This document shows positions 1-39,372 of a stretch of 45,299 nucleotides of DNA, one piece after another. Origin of the DNA: an uncultured Paracoccaceae bacterium (GTDB lineage: Bacteria; Pseudomonadota; Alphaproteobacteria; Rhodobacterales; Rhodobacteraceae). A model generated the notes under the pieces. That model was not told the origin of the DNA. It made no database searches and was given only the letters and a program-made list of their open reading frames with translations. Numbering within the stretch: position 1 is the first letter of the stretch; each line of letters begins with the position of its first letter. The DNA lies in NCBI GenBank assembly GCA_947500825.1, contig CANMTR010000017.1, forward strand, positions 1 through 45,299, read 5' to 3'. The translations under genes and the position numbers were made by a program.

Positions 1-435
1 GCGCGGCGGCTGATGACGATCCCCGGCATCGGCCCGCTGATCGCCACGGCGCTGGCGACACTCGCTCCGCCGCCGGAACACTTCCGCCGGGCGCGAGACT
101 TCTCAGCGTGGCTCGGAGTGACGCCAAGGCAACATTCCACGGGCGGAAAGCAGCGTCTTGGGGCGACGACCAGGATGGGGGAGCGCTCGCTCAGGCGGCT
201 GTTGATCCTCGGGGCCAACAGCGTGGTGATCAAGCGCAGCACCAATCCCATGGCGCAGCCGGGCACCTGGCTGGGCGGGCTGCTTGCACGCAAGCCGGGG
301 ATGCTTGTGCGGGTGGCTCTTGCGAACAAAGAGCCATTATTCGCCATTGGTTCGAGAACAATGGCGAGTGCGCGCATCGTCTGGGCACTCATGGCCCGGG
401 GCGGCGTCTACAGGGCTCCGGTCGCGGCGGCCTGA
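1..435 (+). pseudogene. IS110-family transposase, C-terminal part (cut by window edge), with small in-frame insertion
   Basis: The frame is open from base 1, so the gene continues to the left of the window. What remains is the C-terminal Transposase_20 (IS116/IS110/IS902) region: the helix-hairpin-helix-like TIPGIGPLIATAL motif, then DFSAWLGVTPRQHSTGGK and the arginine-rich RMGERSLRRLLILGA segment, and finally RIVWALMARGGVYRAP, the usual end of this family. Near the C-terminus 13 residues (EPLFAIGSRTMAS) interrupt what in relatives is normally a continuous ALANKMARIVWAL-type stretch. They are encoded by a 39-nt hairpin-forming insert (331-369) that keeps the frame. Family assignment is secure. 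Whether the protein is still active cannot be judged. Confidence 0.85.
331..369 (+). repeat. Palindromic mini-insert B, copy 1 (inside IS110 transposase)
   Basis: The arms TCGCCATTG (341-349) and CAATGGCGA (359-367) pair perfectly around a 9-nt loop, GTTCGAGAA. The insert is 39 nt and in frame, and it interrupts a conserved part of the IS110 transposase. A closely similar sequence (GAGCC.. start, same 8-bp stem, 9-nt loop GTTCAAGCA, same GAG end) occurs at 26688-26724 inside an unrelated IS5 transposase. The insertion limits are inferred from family-typical protein sequence, so they may be off by a few bases. Confidence 0.6.
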
Positions 436-788: not shown

Positions 789-1735
789 ATGCCCACGCCT
801 TCTCCGACGCGTTACCGCACGACGCACTGGTCATCCTGCAATGCCGCGCTGTGCAAGCGGGGCTCGTTGTCGGTCTGGCTTGATCCCGACACGGTTTGGC
901 ATACGGGCAAGTCCGGCAAGCGGGGACGGCCCGAGACCTTTTCGGATGCCGCGATCCAGACCTGCCTGACGCTGAAGGTGCTTTTCGGTCTTCCCCTGCG
1001 CCAGGCGGTCGGACTGGGCGAGAGCCTGATCCGGACGGCGGGCCTCGATTGGCCGGTACCCTTCGTCGGGCGATCCTGCCACTGGAAGGCTCGCTGATCC
1101 TCCTCGGTCTCCACGCTTTGCCGACGCCAGGCACGGATCGCGGTGCAGATCCCGTATCGCGCCTCCGGACAGCCGCTGAACCTGCTGATCGACGGTACCG
1201 GCATCAAGTTTCGCGGCGATGGCGAATGGCTGGCCCGCAATCATGGTTCCTCGCGCCGGAGGCAATGGAAAAAGGTCCATACCGCCATGGACGCAGGCAC
1301 GGGAGATGTCCGGGCCGTTGGGTTCACGTCGAGCCGACAGGGCGACAGACCCCTGCTGCCGGCGTTGCCGGCACAGATCCCGCCCGATGAGCCGATCGAC
1401 ACCCGGAGGTGCCATGGCGCAATCGTCGAACGAGGTGCGGGCGCGGTCATGCCGACCCGCCGCAACGGCGGGCCTGGAAGGAAGACTGCCCAACTGCCAT
1501 CGCGCGAAACGAGATCTTGCGGGCAACCCGGCATCTGGGCCGAGCAGTGTGGAAGACGTGGGCCGGATATCATGTCCGAAGCCGGGTCGAGGCCAGAATG
1601 AACTGCCTGAAGCTCTTCGGCGAACGGATCATGTCGCGAGACCCCGATCGCCAGACCGCCGAAATCCAGATCCGCATCGCGCTCATGAACCGCTTCTCCG
1701 CCCTCGGCACCGCCGAGATCGAAGCGGTCGCCTGA
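789..1735 (+). pseudogene. IS5-family transposase, broken by a palindromic insertion and frameshifts
   Basis: The fragments together rebuild a DDE transposase of the IS903 group. The N-terminal part (789-1097) ends at a premature stop after CHWKAR. The DDE core with LLIDGTGIKFRGDGEW continues in another frame (from about 1143), and the C-terminal part with SRVEARMNCLKLFGERI...IRIALMNRFSALG ends at 1735 in a third. The first break is caused by a ~46-nt insert (1061-1106): copy 3 of this IS in the window reads straight from LDWPVP into DASTLCRR at this point. Non-functional as it stands. Confidence 0.85.
1061..1106 (+). repeat. Palindromic mini-insert A, copy 1 (inside IS5 copy 1)
   Basis: This stretch is absent from IS5 copy 3 but present in copy 2 (27090-27135, reverse orientation), with only two differences in 46 bases by hand alignment. 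Its core at 1070-1094 is a near-perfect hairpin: arms GCGATCCTGCCA and TGGAAGGCTCGC in this copy, and an even better match in copy 2. It introduces a stop codon and shifts the frame. The exact boundaries are inferred from comparison with copy 3. Confidence 0.65.
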
Positions 1736-1864: not shown

Positions 1865-4093
1865 TCAAGTGGTCGAGGCCTCCGATCCTCGGTCGGAGCC
1901 CCCGCGGATCAGCTTGGCCGAGGCGACGGCAATGGCGACCAGCGCCGCGCCCATGAGATCGCTCGCGATGCCGCCCTCGATCAGCGCGAGCGCGGCCCCC
2001 ATCAAGGCGATCCGGGTGATCCAGCTCGCCCGCGCATCCAGGAACCAGCCCTGCACGCCCGCTGACAGCAGATAGACGCCCACGACCGAGGTCAGCGCCG
2101 CACGGATGATCTCGAACCACGTGCCGTCCATCAGGATCGCCGCGTTGTAGAAGAACATGAACGGCACGATGAAAGCCGAGATGCCGATCTTGAACGACGT
2201 CACCGAGGTCTCCATCGCGTTCGACCCCGATATGCCGGCCGCCGCGTAGCTCGCCAGCGCCACCGGCGGCGTGATCGCCGACAGGACCGCGAAGTAGAAG
2301 ACGAAGAAGTGCGCCGTCAGCGGTTGGATGTCGAGTTGCACGAGGCCCGGCGCCACCACCGAGGCGGCCACCGCGTAGGCGGCCGTGGTGGGCATCCCCA
2401 TCCCCAACAGGATCGAGATGCACATGGCAAAGAACAGCGCCAGGAGCTGCGAGGTCGAGGCAAGGCCCAGAAGCACCGACGAGAAACGTGCGCCCACGCC
2501 CGTCAGGCTGATCACGCCCACGATGATGCCCGCGCAGGCACACACGGCGATGATCTGGATCGACATCACCCCGCCCATCTCGAACGCCTTGGCGATCTTG
2601 CGCGGCCCCATTCGGTGCGCCGTGAGCCAGCTGACGACCACTGCCGCGAGGGTGGCGTAGACACCCGCCCGGATCACCGAGTAACCCATGAAGAGAGCGA
2701 CGATCAGCATCACGATCGGGATGAAGAGGTAGATCTTCTTTACGAGCGCCGAGAATTTCGGGATCTCGTCCTCGTTCATCCCCTCCATGCCGAGCTTGGC
2801 GGCCTCGAAATCCACCATGAAATAGACCGACACGAAGTAGAGAATGGCCGGGAGGATCGCGGCGATGGCGATCTCGGTATAGGGGATGCCGGTGATCTCG
2901 GCCATGATGAACGCCCCCGCCCCCATGATCGGCGGGACGATCTGGCCCCCGGTGGAGGCCGCCGCCTCGATGGCGCCGGCGGTCTTCCTCTTGTAGCCGA
3001 CCTTCTTCATCAACGGGATCGTCAGCGAACCGGTGGCGACCACGTTGCCCGCCGAGGTACCGTTGATCATGCCCATGAGGCCGGACGCGAAGATCGCGAC
3101 CTTGGCCGGCCCGCCCCGGGCCTTGCCCGCCAGGGCGAAGGCGAAGTTGACGAAATAGTCACCCACCTTCGATGCCTGCAGGAACGCGGCAAAGATGATG
3201 AACAGGATGATGTAGGTGGACGAGACCGCCGTGGTCGGCCCGAGAATGCCCGCATCGGTGTAAAGCTGGCTGAAGAAGCGGCCCCATTCGATCGGCGGCG
3301 AGTTCAGGAACCCGGGCAGGTACTGGCCGGTGAAGACGTAGGCCAGGAAGATGGCGGAGATGACCACCAGCGCGAGCCCCGCGACCCGGCGCGTCATCTC
3401 GAGGATCAGCGCGCTGCCCGCGACCGCCGCCATGGAGATGCCGATGGGCGCGAAGGGGGTCCCGGTGGAGTTGCGCATGAGCGTGGAGTAGATCGCGATC
3501 AGGTAGGCGGCGACGGCGATCGAGCAGATGCACATCACCAGGTCGGGGATCGCGAAGCCAGACCGCACCCGGCGGTGGAACCATCCCAGCGCGATGGAGC
3601 CGGCCGTGGCGATCCACAGCGGCGCGCCGAACAGCCATGTCTCGCGGAACTTGATGGTCGGGTCCAGGCCGGTCCACTGGACGCCCGAGTTGATCTGGAG
3701 CGCGAACCAGATCGCCACACCCAGCGACATCAGCGCCGGGACGGCGAGCGCCAGCCCGATCAGGCCGAGCATTCGCGTCTCGCCGCTCTCGTCCTCGGGG
3801 AAGGCGGTGGGCGCATAGAACAAAAAGCCCAGGATCAGCGCGCCGGCCACGTGGACGATGCGAAAGTTCCACGTCTCCATTGGAAATCGAGGAAGATAGG
3901 GGATCTCGATCCCCGTGACGGAAGAGATCGACAGTCCCGTCAGCGCGGCCATGTGGAACGCGGCATAGAGCCCGGCCGCCACGGCGACCGTCATATAGCG
4001 CCAATCCTCGAAGATGCGCCGGTTGTCCTCGACGACATCCTCGTCGACGCCCTCGGCGATGTTGCGCTCGTCGTCCGCCTGCGCCTCGGCCAT
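1865..4093 (-). CDS. TRAP transporter fused permease (4TM+12TM), TAXI type
   Basis: 742 residues. This is the membrane component of a tripartite ATP-independent periplasmic importer, with small and large permease subunits fused as is usual for TAXI systems. After a charged acidic N-terminus come many hydrophobic segments. The DctM-type core shows FASGLMGMINGTSAGNVVATG, AAASTGGQIVPPIMGAGAF and SAITPPVALASYAAAGISG, the glycine- and proline-rich motifs of this family. I chose the start at 4093 (MAEAQADDERN) because GGAGG lies 8 nt upstream; an ATG 15 bases earlier is possible. It follows the TAXI binding protein gene (4171-5157) by 77 bp, which holds a strong hairpin. The substrate is unknown. 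The divergent neighbour is a PaoABC-type oxidase operon, so an aromatic or aldehyde-related carboxylate is possible, but that is inference. Confidence 0.92.
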   Translation of the reverse strand: MAEAQADDERNIAEGVDEDVVEDNRRIFEDWRYMTVAVAAGLYAAFHMAALTGLSISSVTGIEIPYLPRFPMETWNFRIVHVAGALILGFLFYAPTAFPEDESGETRMLGLIGLALAVPALMSLGVAIWFALQINSGVQWTGLDPTIKFRETWLFGAPLWIATAGSIALGWFHRRVRSGFAIPDLVMCICSIAVAAYLIAIYSTLMRNSTGTPFAPIGISMAAVAGSALILEMTRRVAGLALVVISAIFLAYVFTGQYLPGFLNSPPIEWGRFFSQLYTDAGILGPTTAVSSTYIILFIIFAAFLQASKVGDYFVNFAFALAGKARGGPAKVAIFASGLMGMINGTSAGNVVATGSLTIPLMKKVGYKRKTAGAIEAAASTGGQIVPPIMGAGAFIMAEITGIPYTEIAIAAILPAILYFVSVYFMVDFEAAKLGMEGMNEDEIPKFSALVKKIYLFIPIVMLIVALFMGYSVIRAGVYATLAAVVVSWLTAHRMGPRKIAKAFEMGGVMSIQIIAVCACAGIIVGVISLTGVGARFSSVLLGLASTSQLLALFFAMCISILLGMGMPTTAAYAVAASVVAPGLVQLDIQPLTAHFFVFYFAVLSAITPPVALASYAAAGISGSNAMETSVTSFKIGISAFIVPFMFFYNAAILMDGTWFEIIRAALTSVVGVYLLSAGVQGWFLDARASWITRIALMGAALALIEGGIASDLMGAALVAIAVASAKLIRGGSDRGSEASTT

Positions 4094-4116
4094 GCCTCGT
4101 TCCTCCATTGCGGTTC

Positions 4117-4138
4117 GGGCCCCGGCGGTCCGGGGCCC
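4117..4138 (-). promoter_or_regulatory. Intercistronic GC hairpin between TAXI SBP and TRAP permease genes
   Basis: Perfect 9-bp arms, GGGCCCCGG and CCGGGGCCC, around the 4-nt loop CGGT. It lies in the 77-bp gap between the binding-protein gene and the permease gene, with no U-tract. Such hairpins commonly stabilise the upstream message or attenuate transcription so that the binding protein is made in excess. That role is inferred here. Confidence 0.55.
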
Positions 4139-4170
4139 GGGTGGCGGGGCCGTGCGCCCCGCGGGGGGGC

Positions 4171-5157
4171 TCACTCGCCGCTATAGACCATCGCGTCGTC
4201 GATCTGGACGTCGGTGTTCTCGCGGAACCACTGGGCCGCGCCCGGATGCCAGGGCAGGACGGTGTTCTGCTCCGCGTTCTCCGGCAGCGTCGCTTCGGCG
4301 GCGCGGTGGATTCCCACCATGCGCTCGTTGTCGGACATCACCACATCCACCACCGCGTTGACGAAGCTGTCGGGCAGCGTGCATTCGGCGATGGCGAAGT
4401 TCCACATGGCCACCGAGCGCGCCGGCTCGGACAGCGTGGAATAGGTGTCCGCCGGGATCTCGAACTGTGCCACCGGGAACTCGTCCATCAGCGTCTGCTG
4501 CTGCTCCTCGGTGTATTCGATGATATTGACGTCCGTCTGCACCTCGAGCTGGCTGACCGCCGGGACAGGGATGCCGGCCGCAAAGGCGATCACGTCGAGC
4601 AGACCGTCCTGAAGCTGGCCGCCCAGGTCGGACCAGCCGCCGTTACGGCGCTCGTAGTTCACGCCGAGCGTGTCCATCATCCGCGGGAAGTAGGTGTCCG
4701 AGGTCGAGCCGGCGGGGCCGAATCCGATCCGGGCGCCGTCGGGGATCGCCTCGATGCTGTCGATGCCCGACGAGCTGAGGGCGGTGACCGAGAACGGCGT
4801 CTGGTACATCGGGAACATGGCGCAGGCGCCCGTCATCTCGAGGCCGGGCGCGATCGGGTTCGAGCCTTCCATGCTCTCCCGCGCGGGTCCGAGCGTCGTC
4901 ATGCCGAAGGCCAGGTCGCCGTTATGGACAAGGGCCATGTTCTGCATCGGCCCGCCCGTGACTTCCGCGCCGCCGGAGATGCCCAGCTCCTCGCCCACGA
5001 GGTTGGCCCAGCCCGAGCCGTAGGCGAAATAGGTTCCCCCCTGGCTGGCCGTGCCCACCGTGAAGCTCGAGGGCCAATCGGAGCGGTCGGCTTCCTGCGC
5101 GGTGGCCATGCCCGTAACGAGGCTGCAGGCCGCGATGATCGTGATCTGAGACTTCAT
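4171..5157 (-). CDS. TAXI-family TRAP transporter solute-binding protein
   Basis: 328 residues with an Sec signal peptide (MKSQITIIAACSLVTGMATA, cleavage near AQEAD), so it is periplasmic. The mature protein begins with the TAXI hallmark (FTVGTASQGGTYFAYGSGWANLV) followed by the ligand-domain pattern ALVHNGDLAFGMTT and RIGFGPAGSTSDTYFPRMMD. The start at 5157 is preceded by GGAGGAGCAC, a good ribosome-binding site; the frame is open further upstream but without family similarity. It is first in the operon with the permease at 1865-4093. It captures a small, probably anionic, solute for the fused permease. The ligand cannot be read from sequence. Confidence 0.92.
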   Translation of the reverse strand: MKSQITIIAACSLVTGMATAQEADRSDWPSSFTVGTASQGGTYFAYGSGWANLVGEELGISGGAEVTGGPMQNMALVHNGDLAFGMTTLGPARESMEGSNPIAPGLEMTGACAMFPMYQTPFSVTALSSSGIDSIEAIPDGARIGFGPAGSTSDTYFPRMMDTLGVNYERRNGGWSDLGGQLQDGLLDVIAFAAGIPVPAVSQLEVQTDVNIIEYTEEQQQTLMDEFPVAQFEIPADTYSTLSEPARSVAMWNFAIAECTLPDSFVNAVVDVVMSDNERMVGIHRAAEATLPENAEQNTVLPWHPGAAQWFRENTDVQIDDAMVYSGE

Positions 5158-16698: not shown

Positions 16699-17913
16699 AT
16701 GTACGATTATGCCGTGTTGTGGGACTGGGCGGGGTTCGCGGTGCGCTGGCTGCACGTGATCACGGCCATCGCGTGGATCGGATCGTCCTTCTATTTCGTG
16801 GCGCTGGACCTCGGGCTGAACCGCGACATCCCCGGACCCGCGGACGGGGAGGAATGGCAGGTGCATGGCGGGGGCTTCTACCACATCCGCAAGTACCTGG
16901 TGGCGCCTGAGGCGATGCCCGAGCACCTGACCTGGTTCAAATGGGAGAGTTACGCCACCTGGCTGTCGGGGGCGGCACTTCTGATAATCGTCTACTGGGT
17001 GGGGGGCGAGCTGTTCCTGCTGGACCCGGGGAAGGCGGACCTTGCCCTGTGGCAGGGCATCGTTCTGTCGGCGGCCTCGATCGGGGTGGGCTGGCTTGCC
17101 TATGACGGGCTGTGCCGCTCGCGGCTGGCGGCACGGCCGAGCCTTGTCATGGCGGCGCTCTTCGCGATGATCGTGGCAATGAGCTGGGGGCTGAACCAGG
17201 TCTTCACCGGGCGTGCGGCGCTCCTGCACCTTGGCGCGTTCACCGCCACGATCATGACCGCCAACGTCTTGTTCGTGATCATGCCCAACCAGAGGATCGT
17301 GGTGGGCGACCTGAAGGCGGGTCGCAAGCCCGACCCGAAATACGGCCGCATCGCCAAGCTGCGGTCCACACACAACAACTATCTGACGCTGCCGGTCGTG
17401 TTCCTGATGCTGTCGACGCATTACCCGCTGGCTTTCGCCACGCCCCATGCCTGGATCATCGCCTGTCTCGTCTTCGTGATCGGGGTCCTGGTGCGCCACT
17501 TCTTCAACACGGTCCACGCGGGCGGACGGGCGCCGCTGTGGACCTGGGGGGCCGCGGCGGCGCTCTTCGTGGCGATCGCCTGGCTATCGAGCGCGCCCAT
17601 GGGGGGCGAGGCGGAGGCACGCGCGCCCACCGCGATCGAGGCCCGGTTCGCCTCGGCCGAGGGGTTCGCGGCGGCCCGGGACGCTGTGATCGGCAATTGC
17701 TCCATGTGCCACGGGCGCGACCCGGCATGGAGCGGGCTCCACTGGCCGCCCAGGGGCGTGGTGCTCGAGACGGAAGGCGACATCGTCCGGCATGCGCGCC
17801 AGATCTACCTCCAGGCGGGGGCGAGCCACGCCATGCCACCCCCCAACGCGGTGCGGATGACCCCCGAGGCACGGGCGGCCATCGTGTCGTGGTACCGCGC
17901 CGGGGCCGGCTAG
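16699..17913 (+). CDS. puuD: Membrane-bound urate hydroxylase/oxidase with cytochrome c domain
   Basis: 404 residues. PuuD oxidises urate to 5-hydroxyisourate at the inner membrane and passes electrons to the respiratory chain instead of oxygen. The urate oxidase N-terminal membrane domain starts with RWLHVITAIAWIGSSFYFVALD and WQVHGGGFYHIRKYLVAPE, followed by about eight hydrophobic helices. Residue 334 starts a cytochrome c motif, CSMCH (C334, C337, H338), and HAMPPPN near the end offers the methionine ligand. It is monocistronic and its stop overlaps the stop of the convergent TRAP permease gene by 4 bp. No HIU hydrolase or OHCU decarboxylase is nearby, so the product must be handled elsewhere. 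Confidence 0.93.
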   Translation: MYDYAVLWDWAGFAVRWLHVITAIAWIGSSFYFVALDLGLNRDIPGPADGEEWQVHGGGFYHIRKYLVAPEAMPEHLTWFKWESYATWLSGAALLIIVYWVGGELFLLDPGKADLALWQGIVLSAASIGVGWLAYDGLCRSRLAARPSLVMAALFAMIVAMSWGLNQVFTGRAALLHLGAFTATIMTANVLFVIMPNQRIVVGDLKAGRKPDPKYGRIAKLRSTHNNYLTLPVVFLMLSTHYPLAFATPHAWIIACLVFVIGVLVRHFFNTVHAGGRAPLWTWGAAAALFVAIAWLSSAPMGGEAEARAPTAIEARFASAEGFAAARDAVIGNCSMCHGRDPAWSGLHWPPRGVVLETEGDIVRHARQIYLQAGASHAMPPPNAVRMTPEARAAIVSWYRAGAG

Positions 17914-19922
17914 CGGGGCAGGGGGGCCGCGCCTGCGGCGGATGCCCGGCGCGCCATGACCAGGTTGGTCCCCAGCACCGCGGCGATCACGGCCGCGCCA
18001 AGGGCCTCGGCCACCAGGTGCGGCCAGAACACCGCGACGGCCGCGACGGTTATCGCGAGACGTTGCCAGTGGGGCAGGGGGGCGAAGAGGTAGCCCTCGA
18101 GCGCGGCGGCCAGGGCGGCCAGGGCCAGGATCGCGATGAGCCCGTTCCAGACCACGAGCGGGACAGGGCCGCCGGTGACGATCGGTTCGTTGAACACCAT
18201 GAAGAGCGGCACGAGATAAAGGCCCTTGGCGAATTTCCACGCCTGCACCGAGGTCTCCATCGGCGGGGACCCGGCGATGGCCGCGCCGGCGAAGCCCGCC
18301 AGCGCCACCGGGGGCGTGACGTTGGAATCCTGGCTCCACCAGAACACCACGAGGTGGGCGACGATCAGCGGCAGGCCGAACTCCTTGGTCAGGGCAGGAC
18401 CGACGAGGACGATCAGGACGATGTAGGCGGCCGTGACTGGCAGGCCCATCCCGAGGATCAGGCTCGCCAGCGCCACCAGGAGAAGTGCCAGAAGGATGTT
18501 GCCCCCCGAGAAGGCCAGCATCATAGCGGAGAACTTCAGCCCCAGCCCGGTGAGGCCCACCACGCCCACGATGATCCCCGCCAGAGCGCACGCGACCGAG
18601 ACGGCGACGGCGTTGCGCGCGCCGAGCTCGAGCGCCTCCATGAGCCGGGAGATGCCGGTGCGGACGAGCTCGCGCGCGCCCGCCAGTGTCGGGCCGGCGA
18701 CGAGGAAGCTCGCCACGGCGCGCACCACCGCCGCCGCGATCACGGACAGGATCGCGTAGTAACCCACCCGGAGCGGCGAGTAGCCCGCCACCAGCAGCCA
18801 GACGAGCACCACAAGCGGCAGCAGGAAGTGCCACCCCTCCATGAGCACGCGGCGCGTGTCGGGCAGGTCCTCGGACGGCAGGCCCTCCAGCCCGCGCTTG
18901 GCGGCCGCGATATGAACGAGGAGGTAGACGGTGCCGAAGTAGAGCACCGCGGGAAAGATCGAGATCACGACGATCTCGATATAGGGGGTGCGGGTGAATT
19001 CGCTGATCAGGAACGCGCCCGCGCCCATCAGCGGCGGCATGATCTGCCCACCGGTGGAGGCCGCGGCCTCGATCCCCCCGGCCTGCGCGGGGCGGTAGCC
19101 CAGCCGTTTCATGAGCGGGATGGTGAAGGCGCCAGTGGTCACCACGTTGGCGATGGCGCTGCCCGAGATCGAGCCCATGCCGGCGGAGGCGAGGACGGCG
19201 GCCTTGGCCGGGCCGCCGCGCTGGCGCCCGGTGGTGGCATAGGCCAGGTCGATGAAGAACTTGCCCGCCCCCGTCACCTCGAGGAAGGCGCCGAAGAGCA
19301 CGAAGATGAACACGAAGGTCGCCGCCACCCCCAGCGGGATGCCGTAGATCCCCTCCGCGCCCAGGGTGAGCTGGCTCGCCAGGCGGTCGAGGGAATACCC
19401 GCGGTGATTGAGGATGCCGGGCATGAAGTCCGACAGGAACGGCAGCTCGCCGCGGTTGCCGGCAAAGGCGTAGACGACGAAGACCGCACCGATCACGGTG
19501 ATCGTGGGGCCGATCGCGCGCCGCGAGGCCTCGAGCACCAGGAGCGTGGTGATGATGCCCACGGCCACGTCCTGGGTGCGGGGGAAGATCGCATTGGCGA
19601 TGGCGTCGATGTTGGCGGGCACCCAGTAGCCCACCAGCACGCTGCCTAGCAGAAGGGGCCCGTCGATGGCCCATCCGAGCGCGCCGCGCGGGCGCTCGGG
19701 GCCGGTGGCGGGATTGATGAGGAAGCACAGGACCAGGATGAAGCCCAGATGGATGGGACGCTGGTAGAACAGACCCAGGGGCTGGACGCCCGCGCCGTAG
19801 AGCTGGAACAGCGACAGCGCGATCCCCACCACGGCGATCGTGCGCAGCAGGATCGTGGGCCGGGGCGGGCCCTCGCCCGGTCCGTTCGTCCGGGTCGCGT
19901 CGGAGGCGTCCGTGATGTCCAT
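17910..19922 (-). CDS. TRAP transporter fused permease, TAXI type (second system)
   Basis: 670 residues, with 4TM and 12TM parts fused. Core motifs include AAASTGGQIMPPLMGAGAF, GGPAKAAVLASAGMGSISGS and NVTPPVALAGFAGAAIAGS. It is last in the operon after the DUF1850 gene (7-bp gap) and the binding protein. The start at 19922 has GGAG about 9 nt upstream. It is shorter than the permease at 1865-4093 and clearly a separate system. It lies end-to-end with puuD, so a role in importing a purine-related anion is tempting. However, the genes are convergent and not co-transcribed, so this is only inference. Confidence 0.92.
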   Translation of the reverse strand: MDITDASDATRTNGPGEGPPRPTILLRTIAVVGIALSLFQLYGAGVQPLGLFYQRPIHLGFILVLCFLINPATGPERPRGALGWAIDGPLLLGSVLVGYWVPANIDAIANAIFPRTQDVAVGIITTLLVLEASRRAIGPTITVIGAVFVVYAFAGNRGELPFLSDFMPGILNHRGYSLDRLASQLTLGAEGIYGIPLGVAATFVFIFVLFGAFLEVTGAGKFFIDLAYATTGRQRGGPAKAAVLASAGMGSISGSAIANVVTTGAFTIPLMKRLGYRPAQAGGIEAAASTGGQIMPPLMGAGAFLISEFTRTPYIEIVVISIFPAVLYFGTVYLLVHIAAAKRGLEGLPSEDLPDTRRVLMEGWHFLLPLVVLVWLLVAGYSPLRVGYYAILSVIAAAVVRAVASFLVAGPTLAGARELVRTGISRLMEALELGARNAVAVSVACALAGIIVGVVGLTGLGLKFSAMMLAFSGGNILLALLLVALASLILGMGLPVTAAYIVLIVLVGPALTKEFGLPLIVAHLVVFWWSQDSNVTPPVALAGFAGAAIAGSPPMETSVQAWKFAKGLYLVPLFMVFNEPIVTGGPVPLVVWNGLIAILALAALAAALEGYLFAPLPHWQRLAITVAAVAVFWPHLVAEALGAAVIAAVLGTNLVMARRASAAGAAPLPR

Positions 19923-19928
19923 TTCGGG

Positions 19929-20411
19929 CTACTCCAGGGAAATGCGGACGCGCTTGTGGGCGGCGCGGCGCGACAGCGAGACCTCGGCGCCTTCGGTGCT
20001 CAGGCGGTGGTCGACCTCCATCGTCCCGGGGCGCAGGACGTAGGCGTCTCCCGGCACCGGCTCGTCGATGCCGAGGATCCAGTACCCGCCCGCGCCGTCG
20101 GAGACCTGCCGCCCGCGACCGGGGATGTGGCCAAGCCCGGCGGCGAAGTCGGGCTGGTGGGAGCGCACGAGAACCATGCGGCCGTCGCGGTTCTCGTAGC
20201 AGTCGGCCACCTCGAACCCTTGCACGGAGTGGCGCCACAGGACGCACCATTCCCCGCCCTCGGGCATGTCGAGCCGAGCGATGGCGGTGCCGTCGTCGAG
20301 CCGGGCCGCGAGGTCCGCCGCCCCCGCCTGGGAGGCGAGAAGAAGCGCCCCCGCGGGAGCGGCGAAGAAAAGGCCCGCGGCTATCCCCCGGGCGAGGGCC
20401 GGAGGGGTCAC
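19929..20411 (-). CDS. DUF1850 protein of a TRAP-TAXI operon
   Basis: 160 residues with an N-terminal signal or anchor (LARGIAAGLFFAAPAGALLLASQAG is hydrophobic), so probably periplasmic or membrane-anchored. The DUF1850 core is visible as WCVLWRHSVQGFEVADCYE and a basic C-terminal strand. Such proteins are frequently encoded between the TAXI binding protein and the fused permease and are thought to be an accessory to the transporter; their exact role is unknown. The start overlaps the upstream SBP stop by 4 bp (ATGA). Confidence 0.8.
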   Translation of the reverse strand: MTPPALARGIAAGLFFAAPAGALLLASQAGAADLAARLDDGTAIARLDMPEGGEWCVLWRHSVQGFEVADCYENRDGRMVLVRSHQPDFAAGLGHIPGRGRQVSDGAGGYWILGIDEPVPGDAYVLRPGTMEVDHRLSTEGAEVSLSRRAAHKRVRISLE

Positions 20412-26336: not shown

Positions 26337-26687
26337 TCCAGGCCGGCGCTGTTGCACGAAGCGTCTGAAGGTCAGAGATCCCCTTTTCCCGCCTGATTTC
26401 AGCCGACGGGCTGCGTGACGGGAATGCCGAGGGCCGTGAATCGGTTGAGGATGGCGATGCGGACTTGGAGTTCGGCGGTCTGACGATCGAAGTCGCGGGC
26501 GGCGAGTTTCTGACCGAGGAGCTTCATGCAGTTCATTTTGGTCTCGACGCGACTGCGCCGGTGGTAGCCGCTCCAGCGTCGCCAGATCGTGCGGCCGAGC
26601 CGCTCGATAGCCCGCAGTGCTTCGGTCCGCGCGCCTGCGCCAGGGCTGTCCTTTTTCCAGGGCTTGGCGTTGCGGCGCGGTAGGAGC

Positions 26688-26724
26688 GAGCCTTGTGCGC
26701 CATTGGTTCAAGCACAATGGCGAG
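26688..26724 (+). repeat. Palindromic mini-insert B, copy 2 (inside IS5 copy 2)
   Basis: CGCCATTG (26698-26705) and CAATGGCG (26715-26722) pair around the 9-nt loop GTTCAAGCA. The sequence matches the insert in the IS110 gene at 331-369 in stem, loop length and flanks (GAGCC before, GAG after). Here it disrupts the transposase frame. IS5 copy 1 reads straight through the same place (GAGAVMPTRRNG), showing that the segment is additional. Confidence 0.65.
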
Positions 26725-27089
26725 CGCATCGGCGCCCCGGCCGGCGATGGCATCGCGGCAGGCGCGGCCGTCATAGGCGCCGTCGGCGGTTACCGAGGCG
26801 ATCGGCTCGCCCTCGGGGATCTGACCGGGCAGGCTCGGCAGCATGGGCGCGTCGCCCACCCCGCTGCCGGTGATTTCGACCGCTGGACCTCGAGCGTCGC
26901 CTCGTCGACAGCCAAGTGGACTTTGCGACAGACGCCCCGCTTGGCCCCGCCATGCTTGCGTGCGTGCCATTCCCCTTCGCCCCGGACCTTGATGCCCGTG
27001 CTGTCCACAAGCAGGTGCAACGGCCCGCCCGAGCTCCGGCAGGGCAGCTGCACGGCCAGCGTCTTCTGGCGTCGGCAGAGCGTCGAGAC

Positions 27090-27135
27090 TGAGGAGGATC
27101 AGCGAGCCTTCCAGTGGAAGGATCGCCCGACGAAG
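27090..27135 (-). repeat. Palindromic mini-insert A, copy 2 (inside IS5 copy 2)
   Basis: On the plus strand the core at 27102-27126 is GCGA, G, CCTTCCA, G, TGGAAGG, A, TCGC: a 25-nt palindrome with a single G/A mismatch. It is the same 46-nt sequence as 1061-1106 (two differences) at the identical transposase position. IS5 copy 3 (39.0 kb) lacks it. Confidence 0.7.
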
Positions 27136-27511
27136 GGTACCGGCCAGTCGAGACCCGCAAGCCGCAGCAGGCTCGCCACGAAGCCCGTGATCTGGCGGAG
27201 CGGCAAGCCGAACAGAACCTTCACCGTCAAACACGCCTGAACCGCGGCGTCGCTGTAGATCGGCTGCGCCCCGCGCTCGCCTGAGGGTGCCGCGTGCCAG
27301 GGCGTCGACGGGTCGAACCAGACCGTCAGCGACCCGCGCTCACGCAGCGAGGCATTGTAGGCAGACCAGTTCAGAGTGCGGTAGCGGATGGGCGCAGGCT
27401 TGGACATGCCGCCCAGCTATGCCTCTGGACTCATGATGTGAATTCCAGGCAGCCTTCGTGCAACAAAGTCGTTTCGGCATTAAAATGGTACGAGCGATTA
27501 TCCCGTATTGA

Positions 27512-36500: not shown

Positions 36501-38279
36501 ATGAAAGACCAGACCGACCGCCCACTCGCCGCGTTGCGCTTCACCCTGCCAGATCTGCGCGCCGCGTTCGCCGACGGCTTGCCCGCTCGCGCGGTCATGG
36601 AAGAGGCGCTGGCGCGGATCGCGGCCGTAGGCGACCCGGGCATCTTCCTCCACCGTCTTCCCGACGCGGAACTCCTGGCAGCGGCGGACGCACTCGGCGG
36701 GCGTGATCCTGCGAAACCACTTTGGGGCATCCCGTTCGTAGTAAAGGACAATATCGACGTGGCCATGATGCCGACGACGGCTGGCTGCCCGGCCTACGCC
36801 TACACACCGGTCGAGGACGCCTTCGTCGTCGCGCGCCTGCGAGCAGCGGGCGCCATCCCGCTGGGAAAGACCAATCTAGACCAGTTCGCGACCGGACTTG
36901 TAGGTACCCGAAGCCCCCATTCCCCCCCCTTGAACGCCCTCGATCCGGAGATCGTGCCTGGCGGTTCCTCCTCCGGCTCGGCCGTCGCGGTCGCGCACGG
37001 GATCGTTCCCTTTGCCCTTGGGACAGATACGGCGGGATCAGGCCGCGTACCCGCGGCGCTCAACGGCATCGTGGGGTTGAAGCCGTCGCTTGGTGCCTTG
37101 TCCGCGTCCGGCGTCGTTCCGGCCTGCCGCACGCTCGATACGATCTCGATCTTCGCAACCGAGATCGCCGACGCACACGAAGTATTTCGAATCGCCGCCG
37201 CTTACGATCCTGCGGACGCCTATTCTCGCGCGATCCCGTCCCCCGCGCTCGCTGCCCCGCTCCCCGCACCGCGTATCGCGATCCCCGACCCTCAGAGCTT
37301 GATGACCTTTGGCGACACCGTTCAGGCAGACGCCTTCGCAGGGAGCTGCGCCGCGCTTGCCGCGTCAGGAGCGCGAGTTGAGGAAATCGACTTCACGCCG
37401 TTCTACGACGTGGCCCGGATGCTCTATGAAGGTGCGTGGCTGGCGGAACGCCTGACAGTTATCGAGGAGCTTTTGGCACGCGACCCCCAAGCGGTACATC
37501 CCGTGACGCGGAAGGTCGTCGAACCCGCCGCCGGCATGAGCGCAGCGGACGCATTCCGAGGCATCTACCGCCTGGCGGAGCTGCGACGGGTTTGCGAGCC
37601 TACCCTCGGAACTTACGACATACTCTGCGTTCCGACGATCCCGACCTTCTACTCCATGGCTGAACTCGCCGAAGATCCGCTCGTCCCGAACGCGAATCTA
37701 GGGACCTACACGAATTTCGTGAATCTTCTTGACCTATGTGCGCTCACCGTCCCGACGGGTGCCCGATCAGACGGCCGCCCAGCGAGCGTGACGTTGATCG
37801 GCCCTTCCGGCGCAGATGCCAAACTAGCGTCGGAAGCACTTCGCCTACTTACCCACGGTCAAGACAAGCACGCGAAAGCCAGCGCAGAGCCATCGGAATT
37901 GACGATCGCGGTTTGCGGGGCGCATATGTCAGGCCTCCCTCTCAATTCCAGCCTCACGGCGCGTGGTGGGCGGTTTCTCGAGAGCATTCGCACGGCTCCG
38001 GCTTACCGGTTCTATGCATTGGCAGGCGATCCACCTGCGAGACCCGGCCTAGTAAGGGAAACTGACGGGGCATCGATCGGCTTGGAGCTTTGGGCACTGC
38101 CGCTGCCCCAAGTTGGAAAATTCTTATCAGAAATACCCGCCCCGCTTGGCCTCGGCCGCGTTAGTCTAGAAGACGGTCGAGACGTGACGGGCTTCGTCTG
38201 TGAGGCGATCGAGACTCCGCAGGCAAGAGATATAACGTCTTTTGGAGATTGGCGCAGTTACCTTGCATCGCTCGGTTGA
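36501..38279 (+). CDS. atzF: Allophanate hydrolase (AtzF type)
   Basis: 592 residues. The N-terminal amidase-signature domain has the Ser-cisSer-Lys triad at K82 (VVKDNID), S156 (PGGSSSGSAVAVA) and S180 (GTDTAGSGRVPA), each exactly nine positions before the AtzF residues K91/S165/S189. A C-terminal domain of about 130 residues (from SELTIAVCGAHMSGLPLNSSL to the end) is the allophanate-hydrolase C-terminal domain. It hydrolyses allophanate to carbamate-type products, finally two ammonia and CO2, feeding nitrogen. It follows the ABC importer by 40 bp. No urea carboxylase, biuret hydrolase or cyanuric-acid gene is adjacent, so the source of allophanate is unclear. Confidence 0.92.
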   Translation: MKDQTDRPLAALRFTLPDLRAAFADGLPARAVMEEALARIAAVGDPGIFLHRLPDAELLAAADALGGRDPAKPLWGIPFVVKDNIDVAMMPTTAGCPAYAYTPVEDAFVVARLRAAGAIPLGKTNLDQFATGLVGTRSPHSPPLNALDPEIVPGGSSSGSAVAVAHGIVPFALGTDTAGSGRVPAALNGIVGLKPSLGALSASGVVPACRTLDTISIFATEIADAHEVFRIAAAYDPADAYSRAIPSPALAAPLPAPRIAIPDPQSLMTFGDTVQADAFAGSCAALAASGARVEEIDFTPFYDVARMLYEGAWLAERLTVIEELLARDPQAVHPVTRKVVEPAAGMSAADAFRGIYRLAELRRVCEPTLGTYDILCVPTIPTFYSMAELAEDPLVPNANLGTYTNFVNLLDLCALTVPTGARSDGRPASVTLIGPSGADAKLASEALRLLTHGQDKHAKASAEPSELTIAVCGAHMSGLPLNSSLTARGGRFLESIRTAPAYRFYALAGDPPARPGLVRETDGASIGLELWALPLPQVGKFLSEIPAPLGLGRVSLEDGRDVTGFVCEAIETPQARDITSFGDWRSYLASLG

Positions 38280-38325
38280 GCGCCTTTAGTTCCATCCGGC
38301 TTTTCGGCCTTTTCGATACTTAAAC

Positions 38326-39372
38326 CGGGGTTGTTGCAAAAAGCGGACTGAAGACATGCTTCCGCCTTTTTCCGGCGGGTCAAGACACATGAACGATTTT
38401 GACGGTGCTTGAGGGCTGAGAAGCGGTTCATGAGAGCGATGCGTATGTGAACTTCGGCGGTCAGAGGGTCGGGGTCTCGTGCGGCGGTGCGCTCCCCGAA
38501 AGCCTGGAGCCACCGCATCCTGGCTTCGACCCGGCTTCGCTTGCGGTAGCCTGTCCAGCGTTTTGAGAACGCCCTACCGTCTTGGCGCGCAGGGTCTCGT
38601 TTCAAACCCGGCCCGCCGGGCCATCCTCTTTCCACGGCCGGCCGTTCTTGCGGATCGGCATGATCGGAGCGGCCCGCCGGCTGGGGATGGCCGTGTAGCA
38701 GCGGCGGGTATCGTAGGCGCCATCGGCCGTCACCGTGGGGATCGGCTCGTCCCCAGGGGTTTGATCGAGCAGATCGGGGGGACGGGGCTGTCGCCGTTGC
38801 GGCTCGGGGTGAACTCCACGGCGCGCATGTCGGAGGTCGCCGGGTCCATGGCCAGGTGGACCTTGCGCCCCTGAGGGCGCCCTCGCCCCCCCCGTGTTTG
38901 CGGGCCTGCCACTCACCGTCGCCGAGGAACTGGATGCCGGTGCTATCGAGGAGCAGGTTCAGCGGGCCCTTGGACCGACGATCGAGGATTTGGATCATCC
39001 GCATCTTCTACCTGCGACAGAGCGTCGAAGCGTCCGGTACTGGCCAGTCGAGCGCGGCCTGCTGCAAAGGGCTGTCCACCATCCCGGCGGTCTGTCGCAC
39101 CGGGAGCACGGAAAAGCATCTTGATCGACAGGCAGACCTAGATCGCCGCGTCAGAGAAGGCGGGTGGCCGACCAGGCCTGCATTCACCCGGTGCGAGCCA
39201 AGTCGTGTCCCTGTCGAGCCGGACGGGGTAAGCCGCGCTTCTTGAGCGCGGCGTTTTAGCGGGACCAGTTTGTCGTGCGGTGGCGGGCGGGTGACGGCTT
39301 GCTCATACCGCCCTCCTAACCTCATGGCTCCGGGCCGTGAATCTTTCCCCAGAAGATTTAGGCAACGACGCC
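38326..39372 (-). mobile_element. Decayed IS5-family (IS903-like) insertion sequence, copy 3
   Basis: About 1.05 kb, the standard IS903 size. The left end GGGGTTGTTGCAAAAAG (38327) and the inverted right end GGCGTCGTTGCCTAAATC (from 39372) match in their GTTGC cores. It lies 47 bp beyond atzF. Unlike copies 1 and 2 it carries no palindromic inserts, so it shows the ancestral arrangement. Confidence 0.7.
38380..39306 (-). pseudogene. IS5-family transposase, multiply frameshifted
   Basis: Starts at 39306 with SKPSPARHRTTNWSR followed by an early stop. Fragments continue with ALDWPVPDASTLCRR, LLLDSTGIQFLGDGEW, KVHLAMDPATSDMRAVEF, TVTADGAYDTRRCYTAI, then KRSRVEARMRWLQAFGER and IRIALMNRFSAL. At least three frame changes separate them. 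The end near 38380 is approximate. This copy is useful as the uninterrupted reference for insert A. Confidence 0.8.

Follow-up and report, generated by a model that had tools for sequence, protein, structure and literature searches.

We analysed a stretch of 45,299 nt from an uncultured Paracoccaceae bacterium (the window), in which two IS5 transposase genes carry nearly the same short insert. Judging from sequence comparisons, the insert probably belongs to a family of REP-like mobile hairpins that are non-autonomous and about 47 nt long. We call it element A, and between IS5 copies it may have been spread by short gene conversion as well. Element A is dispersed and present in many copies, its presence at a single IS5 codon is scattered among related IS5 genes, its folding is conserved, and it brings a net gain of 42 nt at the compared sites.

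The two inserts in the window are 46-mers, at 1061-1106 (+) and 27090-27135 (-), and they mismatch at exactly 2 positions, as a sequence-only reading of this DNA had counted by hand. Both are at one codon of an IS5 transposase. A third IS5 copy has no insert and reads straight across (its empty site is GGAC, at about 39035-39032 on the minus strand), so that reading was right to call the segment an insertion: relative to the empty site, 46 nt are in place of 4 nt (equivalently, 47 for 5), or a net gain of 42. Around the inserts, copies 1 and 2 have 27 mismatches in 92 positions to the left, which agrees with the earlier estimate that the upstream transposase sequence differs at a quarter or more of positions, and 11 in 44 to the right. 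A degenerate pattern for the insert has 2 matches in the window, versus a mean of 0.00 in 100 shuffles, and the 44-nt core has no further match in the window at up to 14 mismatches. The hairpin that had been seen in the core also holds up: as DNA, the 48-mer folds with -10.5 kcal/mol (z -2.86).

The hosts are remnants of IS5-family genes whose transposase is described by the model NF033579, and IS5 is the target; element A is a separate thing. IS5 copy 1 (789..1735, +) matches NF033579 on two stretches, with E-values of 3.6e-22 and 1.6e-27, each of which is under the whole-protein cut-off. A separate comparison gave matches at 822-1487 and 1469-1696. Its ORF (789-1097) ends at a TGA inside element A, and there are more indels downstream. 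IS5 copy 2 (26410..27407, -, outer border approximate) has an ORF at 27407-27099 that also ends at an in-frame TGA inside the insert, and it holds a hairpin of another family (family B) besides element A. IS5 copy 3 (38258..39100, -, borders approximate) is the one with the empty site. So the insert does add a stop codon, as had been proposed, but the further claim that it silences the transposase stands only in part, because both interrupted copies carry other lesions too. Both copies of element A are antisense to the transposase. Using the 48-nt covariance model R1, copy 1 is at 1060..1107 on the minus strand (64.7 bits, E 2.9e-14) and copy 2 is at 27089..27136 on the plus strand (75.5 bits, E 3.7e-17), where both sequences belong to the 29 from which the model was built.

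We found 32 IS5 copies that match our anchor at this site, of which 16 are filled and 16 are empty, and the filled copies all have the insert at the identical site and in the identical orientation. Among the 15 filled copies with enough flanking sequence (105 pairs), the insert diverges by 4.6% on average, versus 23.1% for the left flank, and it is as diverged as the left flank or more in just 3 pairs. (The mean for the right flank, 43.6%, is inflated by indels.) The sequence-only reading had argued that the insert is more alike than its flanks, and this is true across the larger set. It had also suggested looking for the insert in every member of the IS5 subgroup, with divergence like that of the flanks, as the sign of an ancestral part of the element; instead, half of the copies are empty and the insert is less diverged. 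On a tree of the IS5 flanks (30 of the 32 copies, as two with short right flanks were dropped; 186 columns), the filled state requires 7 changes, at least 5 of which are forced by well-supported branches, and a single clade of filled copies is rejected (AU test, p 3.9e-101). For example, window copy 2 is sister to an empty copy from the same genome (L066), with flanks that are 99% identical over the 186 tree columns; blastn alignments of a wider stretch show 1 mismatch over 350 columns and 13 over 631 columns, where the longer one spans the gap. Window copy 1 is nearest to the empty copies L042 and L058. The polyphyly of the filled copies and the empty sister confirm that shared ancestry of the whole IS is not the explanation. 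Element A has arrived at this codon of IS5, or has spread there, on several occasions. Because of the lower divergence of the insert and the scattering of filled copies on the tree, we rejected the idea that it is an ancestral part of IS5.

In particular, it is very hard to believe that the insert is a functional part of an IS5 subgroup, for instance a signal for recoding or bypass within the mRNA of the transposase. There is a GTC..GTC repeat at the insert, and skipping from one to the other would restore the normal length; the net gain of 42 nt is a multiple of three; and the insert is conserved as the flanks diverge. But besides the polyphyly and the nearly identical empty sister, the IS5 copies with an uninterrupted gene that we saw for this site (L041, L042, L043, L045, and L050) are all empty, the copies in the window have other lesions, and related elements are present in unrelated genes and between genes. 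We dropped translational bypass or a mini-intron at the GTC..GTC repeat because of the empty sisters and because the element occurs in unrelated genes. A less far-fetched alternative, although we consider it unlikely, is that the element was inserted just once, into a single IS5 ancestor, and that short-tract gene conversion later carried it from one IS5 lineage to others. This would account for the one site and orientation of all 16 filled copies. Also, window copies 1 and 2 have GTACC and TCTC junctions in common, unlike the nearest empty relatives of copy 1, and the filled label is somewhat clustered on the tree (7 changes versus 10.4 in shuffles, with 14 of 500 shuffles as low). However, the two window copies mismatch at a distance of 12 nt from the 47-nt unit on its left and of 5 nt on its right, so a shared tract could be at most about 62 nt, and junctions in Sinirhodobacter populi differ by one base. 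Furthermore, conversion between IS5 copies cannot explain the members of the family that are in other IS families or at other sites in IS5. Short gene conversion may still add to the spread between IS5 copies. The recent, site-preferring insertion that the sequence-only reading had proposed is thus supported, except that the shared site may be due in part to conversion rather than to fresh insertion each time.

On the strand opposite to the IS5 gene of the window, element A has the form N-TGAGGAGGATCAG-(11-bp stem with a 3-nt loop)-CCCGACGAA-N', where N pairs with N', and its length is about 47 nt. The ends, NTGAG/NTTCG, are imperfect inverted ends. The 29 chosen copies align over 48 columns without gaps, and if we consider the 11-bp stem and the two terminal pairs, then 93.1% of the cells are standard pairs, versus 38-52% if the partners are slid. 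Cells that are changed on both sides number 76, versus 28.3 in shuffles, and none of 500 shuffles had as many. Two of our five measures of covariation do not exceed the shuffles: 7 pairs are changed on both sides, versus 6.6 (323 of 500 shuffles were as high), and there are 18 further pair types, versus 16.8 (153 of 500). Adding an outer helix of 5 bp lowers the paired share to 87.7% (29 rows). Two of its five pairs do not form in most of the rows: 19 of 29 lack pair 6-42, and 18 lack pair 7-41. Among 98 full-length copies (of 107), columns 6-7/41-42 are GA/GA in 54, GC/GC in 22, CC/GG in 5, and mixed in 17. Watson-Crick pairing of the outermost bases holds for 42 of 44 site clusters, versus 18.9 in shuffles (0 of 10,000 were as high); this test used one copy per cluster of similar flanks, the clustering was loose, and some of the clusters are not independent events. 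Compensatory changes preserve the stem and the terminal pair.

In a search with the covariance model, 74 of the 198 family genomes that we sampled, its own included, were positive for the element (E ≤ 1e-4). In a class-wide sample, 6 of 142 genomes were positive, or 5 of 141 if we exclude its own. Both surveys scored the best first-look candidates only. Some genomes have many copies: at E ≤ 0.01, there are at least 72 in Mangrovicoccus, at least 71 in S. populi, at least 57 in Poseidonocella, at least 32 in Palleronia, and at least 21 in one Jannaschia bin. We also found at least 14 in a second Jannaschia bin, at least 9 in J. seosinensis, at least 6 in its own genome, at least 14 on one Rhodobacter plasmid, and at least 4 on one Cereibacter plasmid. 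All 10 of these genomes and plasmids were chosen because they bear the element, and the counts are lower bounds. A search of plasmids with the insert itself gave stretches of 85-93% identity in Cereibacter plasmids and one match of 77% in a Rhodobacter plasmid, and two of these are in an IS256 gene and in an IS21 istA gene. We took loose matches in plasmids from Streptomyces, Nocardia, Rhizobium, and others to be due to chance, and inspecting the one from Rhizobium (L009) led to the same verdict. A scan of genomes with a degenerate 37-nt pattern gave 31 stretches, from S. populi, Jannaschia, Palleronia, Poseidonocella, Mangrovicoccus, and a bin that is labelled only as Proteobacteria. The exact variant from the window is rare: at up to 3 mismatches, it is in 1 of the 198 family genomes, namely its own. 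Viral contigs had 0 matches to one pattern, and sequences from five sources had no relevant Rfam family at the gathering score (the sole match was to the cobalamin riboswitch).

Many of the copies that we examined lie within transposase genes, and these genes belong to several IS families. These include IS256, IS481, and IS21 genes, as well as genes with IS66, IstB, IS110, and further transposase matches in Pfam. (IS family names that go beyond the matched models are what we take these genes to be.) We considered the contexts of 30 top-scoring, and hence non-random, loci (the best 20 of 72 from Mangrovicoccus and the best 10 of 57 from Poseidonocella), and 24 of these are within, or at most 400 nt from, transposase sequence. 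Specifically, for 15 of them tblastn finds an IS5 or IS256 transposase no further than 400 nt away, although some of these matches abut the element rather than span it; 6 more have a Pfam match to a transposase or to IstB at E ≤ 0.01, three of which (L108, L125, and L131) are under the curated cut-off; and 3 more (L114, L119, and L123) have DNA similarity to a locus with a transposase match. The six that we did not count (L104, L107, L127, L129, L130, and L132) resemble pieces of transposases by eye. Of 20 peptides that were compared to Pfam, 11 matched and 9 did not. In its own genome, where our context covers all but two copies (C32 and C72), two are in IS66 genes (L139 and L140) and one is beside a DDE_3 gene (L028). 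In S. populi, by eye, many copies appear to be intergenic and adjoin a ccccgggatattt repeat. The sequence-only reading had suggested that copies outside of IS5 would favor a mobile element, and both the IS256, IS481, and IS21 genes and these apparently intergenic copies are of that kind. We also note tandem arrays of element A in S. populi (L027 and L030), with a period of 42 nt, that seem by eye to lie between genes.

Seven chosen copies in the sense orientation, all with N=G and in IS256, IS481, IS21 istA, istB, IS66, IS3, and IS5 genes, are open and in frame. On the other hand, copies with N=A (e.g., L124, L109, L112, L108, and L152) place a TGA in the frame of the gene, and two copies with N=G (L143 and L161) contain a stop, so keeping the frame is not general. 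We considered selection for an open frame and do not claim it, as the seven open copies were chosen as N=G and the N=A copies bring a TGA.

Comparing filled genes to empty ones gives the same net gain, 42 nt, for each of four types of genes. Besides the IS5 site of the window, these are IS481 (H124; 374 versus 332 aligned nt), IS256 (H137, 444 versus 402; H138, 451 versus 409), and IS21 istA (H151; 445 versus 403). In IS481, there is a clean gain of 42 nt ahead of a resident CGAACG. In IS256, in IS21, and at the IS5 site of the window, the first target bases on the CGAACG side differ between empty and filled copies. The exchange relative to the empty sites is thus a 47-nt unit for 4-5 nt. We did find a net gain of 43 in S. 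populi (L016 versus L067), and the reading frames that flank a number of N=A copies within IS5 imply one extra base. None of the empty and filled sites that we compared in IS481, IS256, IS21, and IS5 has a target duplication. At L028 and L032, direct repeats of TCATT had seemed to be candidates for one, but the empty-site comparisons in other genes do not support this.

We looked for a mobilising enzyme or an autonomous parent in the bearing genomes and at matches to the TGAGGAGGATCAG end, and found neither. Of 8 bearing genomes that we searched for the domain of Y1 transposases (Y1_Tnp, PF01797), 7 gave no hit, among them those with 71, 72, and 57 copies, and the eighth gave a single partial hit; 5 of 14 control genomes were positive. 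There are 41 exact matches to TGAGGAGGATCAG in six genomes or records, and we read out 30 of these: 25 continue with the hairpin of element A, 4 with an altered hairpin, and 1 with apparently unrelated sequence. None of the 30 sites opens a long element within about 60 nt past the end, as a parent IS with the shared 13-nt end would. It is therefore improbable, given that Y1 genes are lacking, that element A is a conventional REP that is mobilised by a RAYT (TnpA-REP, a Y1 HUH transposase), even though it is a short palindrome with conserved ends and up to 72 dispersed copies per genome, some of them in tandem or apparently intergenic in S. populi. Its ends also differ from GTAG. RAYT-associated REPs are mainly extragenic; for element A the picture is mixed, with 24 of the 30 top loci of two genomes in or near transposase sequence and many copies in S. 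populi that look intergenic by eye. MITEs (see PMC10969869) are non-autonomous, structured, and dispersed. Element A shares these features, and its imperfect inverted ends might suggest that it is a MITE that belongs to a larger IS with matching ends. We think that this is slightly less plausible still, as none of the 30 sites opened such an IS within about 60 nt and no target was duplicated at the compared sites.

Element A resembles the GTAG and CGTC superfamilies of REPs in being a short multicopy hairpin with conserved ends. As described in the accessible part of PMC3733652, CGTC REPs are mostly alphaproteobacterial and, like element A, have no known dedicated transposase. Their stems are 8-9 bp long and begin with two A-T pairs, their loops have 4-5 nt, their tail is mostly CCA, and their locations are mainly intergenic. 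Element A, with its 11-bp stem, 3-nt loop, and TGAG/CGAA ends, differs from that description. The palindromic elements of Rickettsia (RPEs) are about 150 bp and lie in metabolic genes, in frame (PMC10969869 and PMC3733652, each in part). As with RPEs, we have short palindromes inside unrelated alphaproteobacterial genes, and some copies of element A add an open in-frame peptide. But many other copies bring a stop, and those in the window are antisense with a stop. Among the matches listed from open PubMed Central papers, there was no description of such elements in the transposase genes of Rhodobacterales. Set against the known kinds, our verdict is that element A is a family of REP-like, apparently mobile hairpins.

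The window also contains two hairpins of family B, both on the plus strand and with approximate borders. One (329..370; pattern match at 342-368) is in an IS110-type transposase gene (NF033542, E 2.2e-23 on 13-318), and the other (26685..26728; pattern match at 26698-26724) is in IS5 copy 2. Members of family B share the loop CGCCAYYGGTYCRAG, whereas their complementary arms vary, and their ends are often similar to TGAG/CGAA. The arms pair at 7 or more of 9 positions in 58 of 81 non-redundant exact matches to the loop in the loci that we fetched, versus 10.3 if the arms are randomly re-paired. Among 25 plasmid records with matches, one match is annotated as an IS3 transposase and one as an IS21 transposase.

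How might element A move? We infer that the mobile form would be a folded single strand, which a putative enzyme would cut and join in trans. The right end, CGAANG, would mark the target, so that a CGAANG-like site would be recognised. Transposase genes would be the main refuge of the element because they are multicopy and dispensable, and the bias towards them would reflect tolerance rather than targeting. We tentatively suggest, as a possibility that we ourselves doubt, that element A and family B represent a class of hairpins, not described so far, that parasitise insertion sequences. They would move in the form of folded single strands and would need no Y1 transposase, with about 47 nt swapped for 4-5 nt and the terminal pair completed by the target. 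If this is true, then there is an extra layer of parasitism in bacterial genomes: mobile DNA that is near the smallest possible size, that lives on insertion sequences, and that enters their transposase genes repeatedly. Some of the IS genes that are broken in these bacteria would be explained as well. A specific prediction is that about 47 nt are exchanged for 4-5 nt and that the terminal pair is matched, and bearing genomes that have no recognisable Y1 transposase make the movement of transposase-orphan REPs testable.

Other short repeats are present in the loci that we fetched. Palindrome C (GGGACATTGCTTCGCAATGCCCTGCCGGGCAGTGGA) has 29 non-redundant matches at up to 7 substitutions (in L012, L011, L025, and others), four of which are in a single IS5 copy (L012, at 149, 344, 493, and 746 on the plus strand). 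Four loci (L166, L171, L185, and L192) have an end of element A that is followed by an altered and longer hairpin; perhaps one mini-element was inserted in another. Finally, two long ORFs on the minus strand of the window (1865-4174 and 17584-20250, with 769 and 888 amino acids) have diverged repeats in common, at 74-76% identity, and are possibly paralogous genes.
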